27,830 nt of DNA from positions 1-27,830 of IMG/VR virus record IMGVR_UViG_3300042549_011227. One strand, 5' to 3'. Shown here piece after piece: positions 23,762 through 27,830 of this stretch. This DNA is from a virus. The position numbers and the translations under genes are program-made. How positions within the stretch are numbered: position 1 is the stretch's first letter; each line of letters opens with the position of its first letter. Under the pieces are notes generated by a model. That model searched no databases, was not told the DNA's origin, and was given only the letters and a program-made list of their open reading frames with translations.

Positions 23762-24084
23762 ACCACCGTCTCGCCATCACCATCGCCCTGTTGGCCGCCT
23801 ATCCCATCATCACCGCCGCCGGCGGGGGCGGGGGCTGCGCGACGACCGCCGAGCCGAAGATCGTCACCGTCGAGGTCAAGGTTCCCGTGGTCGCGCCTTG
23901 CCCGGATCAGCGGGCCCCGGCGCCGACTTTCATCGATAGCCTCGAGGCCATCCGCGCCAAGGCCGCTGTCGGCTCCGACGGCCTGGTCGCCCTGCTGCTC
24001 GGCGGTCGCGAGCAAAGGATCCAGCACCAGGCCGAGAGCGACGCTCAGATCGGGGCGTGTGCGCGGCCGCCAAACCCTGGCTAG
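23758..24084 (+). CDS. Rz1-like outer-membrane spanin candidate
   Basis: 108 residues from ATG 23758, overlapping the i-spanin stop as ATGA. The N-terminus is a signal-like segment (RLAITIALLAAYPIITAA), then five Gly and Cys27, which would be the lipidated residue although the sequence before it (GGGGC) is a poor lipobox. The following VTVEVKVPVVAPCPDQ is characteristic of small phage spanin lipoproteins. The remaining 60 residues are helical. The last gene of the late operon; a double hairpin and terminator follow. Confidence 0.65.
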   Translation: MNHRLAITIALLAAYPIITAAGGGGGCATTAEPKIVTVEVKVPVVAPCPDQRAPAPTFIDSLEAIRAKAAVGSDGLVALLLGGREQRIQHQAESDAQIGACARPPNPG

Positions 24085-24136
24085 TCCTGGCCGCCGCCGT
24101 CGCAACGTCCTGGAAGGCTTAGGCCTCGGACGGTTC

Positions 24137-24170
24137 GCGGGCGCGCTTCACCCGCACCTGTCGCGCCCGC
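24137..24170 (+). promoter_or_regulatory. Hairpin preceding the late-operon terminator
   Basis: GCGGGCGCG (24137-24145) pairs perfectly with CGCGCCCGC (24162-24170) around a 16-nt loop, ending exactly where the terminator stem begins. The two can stack as a tandem structure. Confidence 0.65.
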
Positions 24171-24201
24171 AAGGCCCCCGGCTCACCGCCGGGGGCCTTT
24201 T
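24171..24201 (+). terminator. Rho-independent terminator at end of late operon
   Basis: AAGGCCCCCGGC (24171-24182) pairs with GCCGGGGGCCTT (24188-24199) around TCACC, giving 12 base pairs, with the T run at 24198-24201. This is the clearest intrinsic terminator in the window and lies about 90 bases after the last lysis gene. Confidence 0.9.
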
Positions 24202-24384
24202 GCGTTTCGGAGCCGGAGGTCCGGCGAGGATGGTTGGCCAGCCTTGGCCGACAAAGGGACCAGGGTTACGTTGATCAAGTTGGAAGTCTGGCCATTGTCG
24301 AAGCTTCAACCACCGGAGCTTAATGTCGCTCTGTTCAATCCCACGCTCAGTGCTCTATGGGGATGCGAGGAAAACGGGTGAGAG

Positions 24385-25128
24385 ATGTCCTGGAAAACGG
24401 AAGTCGCGAAATACATTGCGTTCACCAATCCGCCGACACTGCTGGACGCATCCATCCTGTGGAACAAGGCCTTCGGCATCCCCCCGCAGACCTACGGACA
24501 GCCGATGCCAGGCGTGACGCAGGCTATGGGGCTAGTTGATGGTTGGCGTGGAGCGTTAACGACCCAGGCCGGACGCATCGAGTTTGCGCTCATGGCGCAA
24601 GAACCAACAATTTCCGCTCAACCGCCGCCGCCGCCTAGCGGCTTGCCAGACCTACCAAAGGCGCTTGCTGACGGCGCTCGAAATTTCGGACGCGTAATCG
24701 ATGGTCTGACGATCGTTCGAATCGGTCTTGCGGCTGAATTTTTTCAGTTGGTGGAGAGCTCGGACGCTGCCGTCGCCGAAACTTGCAAAGACATCGGGCT
24801 GCCCGCACCAGCTCGAGGTGCCACTGACTTTCTCTATCAAGTCAACGTCAAGCTGCCGATTGATGGCACAAATCTGATCATGAATCGTCTTTGCAAGTGG
24901 GCCTCCGGGGCGGTTCAGTACCTGACCCTCGTCATGCCCCCCATAGGGACGATGCATTCTTCGCAGAGCCAAGAGATCTTCTCGTTTGATGTTCGAACCC
25001 TGTCGCTTGACCTGAACACGGCAGCGGAGACGCCGATTGCGGATGGCGGGCTCGTCGCGGGGTTGTGGACCACCCTTGCGCAGGAGGTGTATGCAATATT
25101 ATCTGACGGTCATGCACGTCTTCGATAA
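24385..25128 (+). CDS. Unknown protein, accessory island gene A
   Basis: 247 residues from ATG 24385. No family is recognised. The protein has no signal peptide or membrane segment, a proline run (AQPPPPPSGLP, about 75-85) between an N-terminal part and a C-terminal alpha/beta domain with alternating strands (IDGLTIVRIGLAAEFFQLVE, DFLYQVNVKLPIDGTNLIMN, EIFSFDVRTLSLDLNTAAET). The strand pattern is faintly like the sporadically distributed TIGR04255-type proteins, but this is an impression and not a match. Codon use is clearly less GC-biased than the phage genes. The next gene overlaps its end by 38 bases, suggesting an operon. Confidence 0.75.
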   Translation: MSWKTEVAKYIAFTNPPTLLDASILWNKAFGIPPQTYGQPMPGVTQAMGLVDGWRGALTTQAGRIEFALMAQEPTISAQPPPPPSGLPDLPKALADGARNFGRVIDGLTIVRIGLAAEFFQLVESSDAAVAETCKDIGLPAPARGATDFLYQVNVKLPIDGTNLIMNRLCKWASGAVQYLTLVMPPIGTMHSSQSQEIFSFDVRTLSLDLNTAAETPIADGGLVAGLWTTLAQEVYAILSDGHARLR

Positions 25129-25765
25129 CTTGGTTCACCGCAAATCGACCTCTGCCGCAGCCATGACCGCGGCGATGATCGTGGCCTCGTCCGCGTCAGC
25201 CGGGCCTGTGCCCGATCGCTCGCTGTCTACGGTTGTTCCCGCCGTTCTCGATCGCGCAATGACCCGGACGACAGCCGTATCCCCACAGACTGTTAAGCAG
25301 GCCAAGGTTACGGCAACTTTTTCTGGCGTCGCATGGGGGGCGGCTCTGCCGGAAATGCAGTGCCATAAACTCTGGCTTTCCGCCGATAACTCGCGGGCCG
25401 ATACTCAATCCGGCTTCTGGCAGGCAAAGAGCACTGTCGTTCAGTCAGTCATCCAGGAGCTTCTTTCCGCAGAGGCGGAGCTTAGCGACCTCGCCCGCCT
25501 TAAAGATGGTTGGGACGGTGAGGGAGCACCGGCCCCAACCGCAGCCGCAATTGAACGGGCGAAGTCCGTTGTTCGACGGTTGGTGGCTACCGGCTCGATT
25601 GGAATCTCAGTCCACGCCGATGGTCGCGTGATCGTCGAGCGGAATGACGACGACGCCTCGAACGAGATCATAGTGGGTGATACAGGCCCGCTTGTGGTCT
25701 GGTCGTCGAAGGATGGTCGGAGTCAGTACATCAGCGATCTTTCGCTGCTCGCCTCCATCTCTTAA
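25091..25765 (+). CDS. Unknown protein with GWDGEGA motif, accessory island gene B
   Basis: 224 residues from ATG 25091, which overlaps gene A by 38 bases; AGGAGG lies only three bases before this ATG, so ATG 25112 (seven codons later) is an alternative. Residues 20-37 are hydrophobic and end in ASA-GP, like a signal peptide or single membrane segment. The C-terminal half has LARLKDGWDGEGAPAP (135-150), a motif I recall from uncharacterised proteins often paired with other unknowns, followed by a helix and strands ISVHADGRVIVERNDDD and IIVGDTGPLVVWSSKDGR. The function is unknown. It sits between two other unknowns of the same composition, 14 bases upstream of gene C. Confidence 0.75.
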   Translation: MQYYLTVMHVFDNLVHRKSTSAAAMTAAMIVASSASAGPVPDRSLSTVVPAVLDRAMTRTTAVSPQTVKQAKVTATFSGVAWGAALPEMQCHKLWLSADNSRADTQSGFWQAKSTVVQSVIQELLSAEAELSDLARLKDGWDGEGAPAPTAAAIERAKSVVRRLVATGSIGISVHADGRVIVERNDDDASNEIIVGDTGPLVVWSSKDGRSQYISDLSLLASIS

Positions 25766-25779
25766 TCGGGGCAGCCTGC

Positions 25780-26394
25780 GTGGTCCTTCAGTGTTCCGCG
25801 CTGCTCGCGTCTCTGACGGGTTTGTCCAGCGACGCCATGAAAGTGGACGCCGAGGCTCCAGACTGTGCCTGTGAGGCCTGCTCGCTTAGTGCGATCGGTC
25901 CTGTTCTGTTAGAGGAAGTCCTCGTCCGGATCGTTGTTAGTCCGCACCATATCGACCGTAAGAAAAATCGATGCCGGTCAGCGGCGCTGAGCCATGCCGA
26001 GACTTTCGGGATGTCGACCTTTCGATCCGCTCATGCGACCGATCAGGAGATACTGGCCACCGCGACCGCGCTGGCTGAATCGGCTAGGGGGAGCGATCCG
26101 AATGCGGGCGTTTTCGGTGTGCTTCTTTTGCCTGCTCAAGCCGTGAAAGCAATAGTCGACCCTGGAATGCCGACGCCAGTTTACTGCATCTATGATACCG
26201 CGTTGGAAGCGGATGCGAAGCTTCCGGCAAGGCCGGCGCATTGTGACGTCTTTCAGCGGGTAGACAGCACCCCACAGACCGTCCAACAGGAAAGGCGACA
26301 GCGCCTTTTTGCCGCCGTCCAAGCGACGTTCATGACTGTAGCACAGTTCAGAAATGGACTGCTGTCAGGGCTTGCGGCAGCAAACGCCCCTTAG
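25780..26394 (+). CDS. Unknown protein, accessory island gene C
   Basis: 204 residues from GTG 25780, with CGGGG eight bases upstream; ATG 25837 (residue 20) is an alternative that would remove a weakly hydrophobic N-terminus. A cysteine cluster CACEAC (29-34) is followed by LLEEVLVRIVVSPHHIDR, with the HHID motif at 56-59, then FGMSTFRSAHATDQE, a strand GVFGVLLLPAQAVKAI, and VYCIYDTA (134-141) followed by RPAHCDVF (151-158). The conserved-looking His, Asp and Cys residues could form an active or metal-binding site, which is speculation. Lower GC, shared with genes A and B. No family named with confidence. Confidence 0.7.
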   Translation: MVLQCSALLASLTGLSSDAMKVDAEAPDCACEACSLSAIGPVLLEEVLVRIVVSPHHIDRKKNRCRSAALSHAETFGMSTFRSAHATDQEILATATALAESARGSDPNAGVFGVLLLPAQAVKAIVDPGMPTPVYCIYDTALEADAKLPARPAHCDVFQRVDSTPQTVQQERRQRLFAAVQATFMTVAQFRNGLLSGLAAANAP

Positions 26395-26448
26395 CTCACC
26401 ATAGATCTTTGTCGTGAGGATTCACGCCAGGTGATGGCCTCGGCGCCG

Positions 26449-26478
26449 TTGACGCCAAAACCCTGTACGGCCTAGCGT
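26449..26478 (+). promoter_or_regulatory. Candidate promoter for the 76-aa gene
   Basis: TTGACGC (26449-26455) followed after 15 bases by CCTAGCGT (26471-26478). This partly fits the Caulobacter housekeeping pattern TTGACGS / GCTANAWC as I recall it. The start codon is only eight bases further, so the leader would be minimal. Confidence 0.35.
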
Positions 26479-26485
26479 CGCTACC

Positions 26486-26716
26486 ATGGACGAGATCGAA
26501 ACCCGCTTGGCGGCGCTGGAGCTGTGGGCGATCGAGGTCGGGGCGTTCATCGACCCGGCCGCCCTGGCCGACGCCAAGCGATCGATCCTCGGCGGCGTCG
26601 ACGAGGCGGCCGAGGAAGAGCGGACGATCCGCCTGGGCGCCGTCGGCCTGATCGAGGACGCGCAACGCCGCTGGGCGCCGCCGGCCGAGGGCTTGATGAT
26701 CCCCGGCGAGGGCTAG
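26486..26716 (+). CDS. Small acidic helical protein of unknown function
   Basis: 76 residues from ATG 26486. The product is almost entirely helical and acidic (MDEIETRLAALELWAIEVGA, DEAAEEERTIRLGAVGLIED). Codon use returns to strong GC3 bias, unlike the island just upstream. The antisense reading over the same stretch has no protein-like pattern, so this strand is the coding one. Its TAG and the stop of the convergent higA gene are the two strands of one CTAG palindrome at 26713-26716. No family recognised; it may be a host or phage gene. Confidence 0.6.
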   Translation: MDEIETRLAALELWAIEVGAFIDPAALADAKRSILGGVDEAAEEERTIRLGAVGLIEDAQRRWAPPAEGLMIPGEG

Positions 26717-27033
26717 GCCCCGCTCGCCGGGAACGGCGTGATCGCCGCCAGGTCCTCGGCCATGGCGCCGCGGGCGACCTTCAGGTCATGGGTTGCCTGC
26801 AGGTTCAGCCAGAACTGCGGCTCGTTGCCGAAGAGCTTGCCCAGCCGCAGGGCCATGCTGGCGGTGACGGCGTTCGAGCCGTCCAGGATGTTGTAGAGCG
26901 CCGGCCGGGAGATGCCGAGGGCGCGGGCGATCTCGGCCTTGCCCTGGGGCATGGCGTCGATGATGTCGGCGAGGATCGCGCCGGGGTGGACGGGATCCAG
27001 ACCATCGGGGCTGGCTGCGGGGATGCGGGTCAT
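26713..27033 (-). CDS. higA: HigA-family antitoxin (XRE-type HTH)
   Basis: 106 residues on the - strand from ATG 27031-27033. The start GLDPVHPGAILADII is the standard HigA N-terminus; the helix-turn-helix is KAEIARALGISRPALYNILD (32-51) followed by GSNAVTASMALRLGKLFGNE and PQFWLNLQATHDLK, all diagnostic of the HigA addiction-module family. It would neutralise HigB and repress the operon. It lies downstream of higB with an unusually long 113-base spacer. Converges with the 76-aa gene and shares a CTAG stop palindrome with it. Confidence 0.92.
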   Translation of the reverse strand: MTRIPAASPDGLDPVHPGAILADIIDAMPQGKAEIARALGISRPALYNILDGSNAVTASMALRLGKLFGNEPQFWLNLQATHDLKVARGAMAEDLAAITPFPASGA

Positions 27034-27093
27034 GGTGGCTGTTCTTTCATCTTGCGGCGGGTCTGATCAAGACCATCGTTCGGAACGGGTGGC

Positions 27094-27113
27094 GGCAGGC
27101 CGTGGGGCCTGCC
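27094..27113 (-). promoter_or_regulatory. Hairpin in higB-higA spacer
   Basis: GGCAGGCC (27094-27101) and GGCCTGCC (27106-27113) pair perfectly around a four-base loop. There is no T tract on the - strand. It could slow decay or influence relative toxin and antitoxin expression. Confidence 0.6.
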
Positions 27114-27130
27114 TTGAGAGGGGTGGGGGA

Positions 27131-27146
27131 GGGGCCCGTCGGCCCC
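27131..27146 (-). promoter_or_regulatory. Hairpin abutting higB stop codon
   Basis: GGGGCC (27131-27136) pairs with GGCCCC (27141-27146) around four bases, immediately after the higB stop in the transcribed direction. A second spacer structure in tandem with the one at 27094-27113. Confidence 0.5.
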
Positions 27147-27425
27147 CTAGTGGTAGTCCTCGATATCGACATCCTCGGCGCCGTTGTCCCATCCAAAGGT
27201 GATCCGGTAGTTGCCGGAAACCCAGACCGAGAACCGGCCGGGCTGGCCCGGCTCTAGGGAGTGGAACCGCAGGCCCGGCAGGTTCAGGTCCGAAGGCTTG
27301 GTCGCCGCGTCGAGAGCGGTGAGGATGCGGGTGATGCGTGCGGTGTTCTGGACCGGCAGGCGGCGGGTGTCTCGGGCGTTCGCGTGGAAGGCGGCGAGGG
27401 CTTTGTTTTTGAAGGTCTTGATCAT
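27147..27425 (-). CDS. higB: HigB-family toxin (RelE/ParE superfamily mRNA interferase)
   Basis: 92 residues on the - strand. The start is taken at ATG 27423-27425 (MIKTFKNKALAAFHANARDT), the usual HigB N-terminus; an in-frame ATG at 27459-27461 would add 12 residues but lies upstream of the predicted transcription start. Family segments are RLPVQNTARITRILTALDAA, LNLPGLRFHSLEPGQPGRFS and VWVSGNYRITFGWDNGAEDV ending DIEDYH, closely matching HigB of the RelE superfamily, which cleaves mRNA at the ribosome. Paired with higA downstream. No ribosome site precedes the ATG, in keeping with a leaderless message. Confidence 0.93.
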   Translation of the reverse strand: MIKTFKNKALAAFHANARDTRRLPVQNTARITRILTALDAATKPSDLNLPGLRFHSLEPGQPGRFSVWVSGNYRITFGWDNGAEDVDIEDYH

Positions 27426-27432
27426 GTCGTTA

Positions 27433-27476
27433 TATGTAAAGCGATACTTGTCATATGTCAAGCATCGCTTTACATA
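27433..27476 (-). promoter_or_regulatory. higBA promoter within a 44-bp near-palindromic operator
   Basis: TATGTAAAGCGAT (27433-27445) and ATCGCTTTACATA (27464-27476) are perfect inverted copies, and the inner CTTGTCATATGTCAAG shares the same centre, so 20 of 22 positions per half are complementary. On the - strand the region contains TTGACA (27461-27456), a 17-base spacer and TACATA (27438-27433), a near-consensus vegetative promoter. Binding of HigA or the HigBA complex here would cover both hexamers. The start of transcription is expected about 27426. Confidence 0.85.
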
Positions 27477-27536
27477 AATTGCATCCCGGCGCTATTTTTC
27501 CGCATCCCCTAATGCGGGATTTTGGGACCTGACCGA

Positions 27537-27830
27537 CTAGGGCCATTGCCCCATGGCGGCGGCCTTGATCGTCCAGTCCGGATGGCCTGGCCAGCCGCTG
27601 TCGCGCAGGGGCAGGTGAGGCGTGTTCGGTTGGCCCGCCCAATAGGACACTGTCCCCGGACAGTCCGGGTCGGGGCAGCTGGACAGGACATTGACCAGGG
27701 AGAAGGCCTCGCCGCGGGCGGCGATCAGGGCGTCCAGGTCGACCGGCCGATAGGCCTGGCAGACGTTGCACGACGCGGCGCACGACCCGCCGGCGCGGAC
27801 CACCTCCCGCAGGGCCCCGGCGGTCTGCAT
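27537..27830 (-). CDS. Small cysteine-rich protein, possible zinc ribbon (start at window edge)
   Basis: 97 residues on the - strand if the ATG at the very end of the window is the start; an earlier start beyond the edge cannot be excluded. Cysteines lie at 17, 21, 24, 52 and 57, forming CNVC and CPDPDC pairs separated by DLDALIAARGEAFSLVN, a layout like the zinc-ribbon-type small proteins I recall from Caulobacterales. Ends with WPGHPDWTIKAAAMGQWP. Function unknown. GC-rich codon use suggests a resident or phage gene rather than part of the low-GC island. Confidence 0.65.
   Translation of the reverse strand: MQTAGALREVVRAGGSCAASCNVCQAYRPVDLDALIAARGEAFSLVNVLSSCPDPDCPGTVSYWAGQPNTPHLPLRDSGWPGHPDWTIKAAAMGQWP

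Follow-up and report, generated by a model that had tools for sequence, protein, structure and literature searches.

The sequence considered here, hereafter the window, is the whole stretch of 27,830 nucleotides (27.8 kb) that forms positions 1 to 27,830 of the IMG/VR virus record IMGVR_UViG_3300042549_011227. Towards its end, three intact and consecutive open reading frames, designated A, B and C (24385-26394), occupy the plus strand between the terminator of the late operon and a higBA pair (Table 1). The first-pass annotation had described them as a trio with a 38-base overlap between A and B and a gap of 14 bases between B and C, an arrangement borne out by the ORF coordinates. The start codon of B is ATG 25091, with AGGAGG immediately 5' of it, and C is called from GTG 25780; on account of the length of the C family proteins, the true start of C may instead be ATG 25837, which would give a protein of 185 aa.

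Table 1. Coordinates of the genes, signals and conserved residues in and around the A-B-C island
Feature	Position	Strand	Description or evidence
Intrinsic terminator closing the late operon	24171-24199	+	12-bp perfect stem, loop of 5, T-rich tail
Gene A	24385-25128	+	247 aa, 'TDFLYQ[VI]N ... NR..[KR]W' family of unknown function
Gene B	25091-25765	+	224 aa, WDG domain at the C-terminus
GWDGEGA, WDG domain core of B	25508-25528	+	alignments
Gene C	25780-26394	+	204 aa from GTG 25780; R/F/S/H family
Invariant Arg of C	25927-25929	+	21/21 sequences
Invariant Phe of C	26005-26007	+	21/21 sequences
Invariant Ser of C	26014-26016	+	21/21 sequences
Invariant His of C, within PAHCDV	26239-26241	+	21/21 sequences
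HigA	26713-27033	-	TIGR02607 2.5e-22, above cut-off
HigB	27147-27461	-	PF05015 2.2e-12, above cut-off

The GC content of the island is 58.9% (57.5% for A, 59.1% for B and 58.7% for C) as against 68.2% over positions 1-24275, where the lowest value for any segment of 2,010 bases is 64.2%; the lower GC noted earlier is thus confirmed. The position assigned to the island, after the late-operon terminator and before higBA, is equally upheld by the hairpin and by the HigA and HigB matches. Judged by these matches, the higBA genes (26713-27461) are a genuine pair, so that the end of the phage would carry two cargo modules side by side. They lie on the opposite strand to A-B-C, with one gene in between. 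The intervening 76-aa ORF (26486-26716, plus strand) has a GC3 of 0.95, phage-like and unlike A-B-C, and gave no match to anything. No tRNA was detected in the whole window and no Rfam element in positions 24000-27830. Searches with A, B and C returned nothing above cut-off from Pfam and NCBIfam and nothing convincing from PHROGs, in agreement with the earlier remark that none of them matches a known structural or lysis function of phages.

Membership of B in the WDG family was assessed by a profile match and by the W[DN]G core. A B profile built without the window protein recovered it at 1.3e-10, and the core is present. In PADLOC, B matched positions 259-338 of the 384 of a PDC-M32A model (E=0.0017); the relatives of B likewise match the C-terminal region of PDC-M32A, and a Bacteroidales homologue matches four PDC-M32A models there. 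Among the motifs singled out by the first-pass annotation, GWDGEGA proved to be the conserved core of this domain and the H of PAHCDV in gene C is invariant, whereas CACEAC, HHID and DTA are not conserved among the relatives. Viral contigs also contain the WDG domain by itself or fused to an HNH-like region. In one such contig (L019:7293-8529) the domain is attached to a zinc-finger/HNH-like region, and the frame behind this gene is C-like but truncated; in another place (L017:570-1842, minus strand) a WDG-domain gene has no C behind it and the next gene is Panacea-type in appearance, by eye only. The N-terminus of B (25091-25210) is moderately hydrophobic and signal-peptide-like. The counterparts of B at L012, L033 and L037 contain stronger hydrophobic segments, and in some members B may be associated with the membrane.

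Gene C was recovered at E=0.0026 by a profile that was derived from the downstream genes and excluded the window, the best decoy among 418 unrelated ORFs scoring E=5.6. All 21 aligned proteins of the family share four invariant residues, R, F, S and H. All four are kept in the window protein, which therefore belongs to the R/F/S/H family by both its invariant residues and its profile match. The family is divergent and includes PDC-M32B proteins among its members; a search of the window C against PADLOC, including the M32B models, gave no match at E<=1. An AF2 model of C (pLDDT 74, pTM 0.71) found no match in PDB or BFVD, and the modelled fold is possibly new. With respect to known toxin families, C has neither a Pfam or NCBIfam match above cut-off nor a PDB fold match. 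Damaged relatives also occur, the C gene of G361 carrying a stop and the C-like frame of L019 being cut short.

The first B-C pair outside the window was seen at a Bacteroidales locus, in which the gene immediately behind a B homologue is C-like. A total of 396 Bacteroidota genomes were surveyed with the B profiles and then with the C profile, with inspection of the neighbouring genes, and many B-C pairs were present among the neighbours of the B-profile matches. The C profile matched at 36 places in these genomes, with the B domain directly upstream of C in 25 and either B or a TIGR04255 gene upstream in 31, a count that is partly circular because the C profile had been built on genes that follow B or TIGR04255, the newly found loci forming its independent part. 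At the remaining five places, the upstream gene of L126 is B-like (E=0.0005), and at L124, L125, L127 and L128 C is directly preceded by a gene of 259-302 aa on its own strand, with a resemblance to B by eye only. A further B-C pair was found at L129, and among the wide regions retrieved, matches of the C profile lay solely beside the known operons. Given these frequencies, B and C form, as far as gene order can tell, a genuine unit, in most cases preceded by a third gene of variable type. Co-occurrence of homologues had been set beforehand as the test of the suggestion that the three genes act together; the B and C families are direct neighbours in a constant order at dozens of loci, and theirs is therefore not a case of homologues that almost never co-occur. 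The suggestion is well supported for B and C; A is joined to them by position only, and its one homologue occurs without B-C.

Searches of a plasmid set by tblastn with A, B and C found nothing at E<=0.01, and the B core, the C proteins of L002 and L061 and the A homologue of L023 had no match in plasmids. A and B were without match in phages, and when viral contigs were scanned directly with peptide patterns of A, B and C, no relative came to light.

The sole homologue of A detected (L023:1-717), located at the edge of a viral contig, was picked up by a pattern drawn from similar proteins and then confirmed by alignment (BLASTP 2e-7, with the TDFLYQ block in common); neither B nor C was detected in L023 by profile search. 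When plasmids were searched with part of A at E<=10, the matches were all weak (E 2-4); none of the three regions inspected was operon-like, and one of the three carried no annotation. A did not match any solved structure by sequence, and its AF2 model on a mixed alignment (pLDDT 48) was too poor for a fold search. No match of A to the curated TIGR04255 model was found at E<=1, and the profile-profile comparison gave E=0.057 over 35 columns only. An assignment of A to TIGR04255 or to the SecB-like chaperones is not supported, and the profile tie to TIGR04255 is not significant.

Elsewhere, several unrelated types of gene precede B-C, usually 210-260 aa in length. The upstream gene encodes a TIGR04255 protein at L048, L061, L072 and L079, a DUF3467 protein at L010 and other proteins of about 210-250 aa at L036-L039, L126 and L128; no recognised gene precedes the pair at L002, L016 and L129. 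The operons with TIGR04255 share with the window a gene of about 250 aa followed by B and then C. They differ in that the window A has no TIGR04255 match, and a C-family gene lies within 2 kb at only 9 of the 25 TIGR04255 places. The third position in some TIGR04255 operons is taken by a PemK-like gene (L066 and L067; PF02452 at 4e-13 for the L066 gene). The third gene of L058 and L094 resembles a HEPN-like small protein by eye only, and Pfam gave no match for it.

PDC-M32 belongs to the PDC families, computational candidates most of which are without experiments (PMC12988326). In the literature found, one paper mentions PDC-M32, in a Sinorhizobium prophage (PMC12429752), and no family member or homologue with a tested function is described. 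Pairs of PDC-M32A and PDC-M32B were identified at L040, L043 and L057, with best-model values of 1e-110 to 1e-155 for M32A, whose proteins align with the model over its full extent, and 1e-44 to 1e-54 for M32B. Because the M32B proteins of these three loci carry the C signature, PDC-M32 has the appearance of an N-terminal module fused to B, with C behind it. In both the window and PDC-M32 a WDG domain is encoded ahead of an R/F/S/H protein, and in the window the second gene directly follows the WDG gene. However, M32A is one protein of 375-384 aa, whereas the WDG domain of the window resides in the separate, shorter B, and the N-terminal part of M32A was not detected in the window, A being unrelated to it by sequence. 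A single protein of about 380 aa matched over the whole M32A length is lacking, since B aligns with the C-terminal positions only, and C has no M32B model match, the R/F/S/H family being common to both by the wider profile. The window lies outside the strict definition of PDC-M32.

Toxin-antitoxin-chaperone (TAC) modules with a SecB-like chaperone (PMC5105189) also resemble the locus, having three small genes of which one is a possible helper of a toxin-antitoxin pair, and higBA lies near the window operon. The two differ in that higBA of the window is on the opposite strand with a gene between, C is not HigB, and no relation of A to SecB emerged. TAC membership through the neighbouring higBA was rejected on the grounds of the opposite strand and the intervening gene.

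The surroundings of the relatives, taken as raw adjacency at individual loci, include several genes of anti-phage defence. L089 adjoins HsdM, HsdS and GmrSD; L092, a PDC-M32 locus, adjoins an Eco57I/MmeI enzyme and GmrSD; L088 adjoins an OLD-type ATPase and L057 a PDC-S60-type gene. L094, a TIGR04255 operon without C and with another third gene, adjoins the BREX genes BrxHI, PglZ and an AAA_15 ATPase. Other loci, such as L085, L086 and L087, are located among ordinary or housekeeping genes.

The profile matches place the predicted B-C core in a widespread, uncharacterised gene pair related to the PADLOC candidate PDC-M32. Because this pair recurs, often beside anti-phage defence genes, a cargo defence or toxin-antitoxin-like role is probable. 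The explanation we favour, to which we give an even chance, is that A-B-C is an acquired, phage-borne cargo operon related to PDC-M32 and acting as a toxin-antitoxin-like or abortive defence module. C would be the effector or toxin, with B as the partner or inhibitor dedicated to it, while A would be an exchangeable helper that reads a trigger or stabilises the complex; carried by a phage, the operon may block competing phages or secure the maintenance of the lysogen. This explanation draws on the lower GC of the island, the match of B and its relatives to the C-terminus of PDC-M32A, the inclusion of PDC-M32B in the C family, the B-C linkage, the PemK third gene and the defence neighbours at L088, L089, L092 and L094. 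Counted against it are the housekeeping surroundings of some loci, a C model unlike any known toxin, an A without a recognised connection to the upstream families elsewhere, and the status of PDC-M32 as itself a prediction. The defence or toxin-antitoxin-like role proposed by the first-pass annotation has indirect support, from the PDC-M32 relation, the defence neighbours at several loci and PemK in the third position.

The place of A is the point on which a narrower explanation departs, namely that B and C are a conserved functional pair and A an unrelated, co-transcribed cargo gene, the unit having two genes as at L002, L016 and L129. The absence of a recognisable third gene at these loci, the lack of B or C beside the A homologue of L023 and the unrelated types of upstream gene elsewhere are consistent with it; yet A overlaps B and has a similar GC content, and B-C is usually preceded directly by a gene of 210-260 aa. 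We regard a two-gene unit as unlikely. The function may also differ, with the island serving as cargo for, say, stress, regulation or lysogenic conversion and playing no role in either defence or addiction. Such cargo agrees with the lack of a known function in any relative, with the occurrence of the WDG domain in other contexts and with the housekeeping surroundings of some relatives. The defence-gene neighbours, the PemK third position and the PDC-M32 relation argue against it, and it seems unlikely. Decay into a functionless remnant, as the damaged C frames of G361 and L019 might suggest, appears very improbable for the window in view of its three successive open frames, the four retained invariant residues of C and the retained WDG core of B.

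An extension of the favoured cargo-defence explanation, possible but on the doubtful side, would make B-C the unchanging centre of an extensive and so far unrecognised superfamily of defence systems whose first gene is freely swapped (TIGR04255, DUF3467, the N-terminal part of M32A, the window A type and others). C would then be an effector marked by the R/F/S/H signature and a fold unlike solved structures, used by the phage as a weapon against competitors. TIGR04255 operons, PDC-M32, orphan WDG proteins and the unnamed R/F/S/H family, which stand apart in the databases, are joined here as one testable gene pair, of which the window is a compact, phage-borne example with named residues. If C is indeed a toxin, it would represent a new effector family.

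Some of the TIGR04255 operons are of interest in their own right. Those of L066, L067 and L093:8875-9258 consist of a TIGR04255 gene, a short middle gene and then a PemK/MazF toxin (PF02452), and we know of no description of a toxin operon of this type with a TIGR04255 protein. At L063, L065 and L070, TIGR04255 is followed by a repeat-like protein of about 240 aa and then by a protein of 171 aa whose type is unknown, so that three genomes share one and the same trio.
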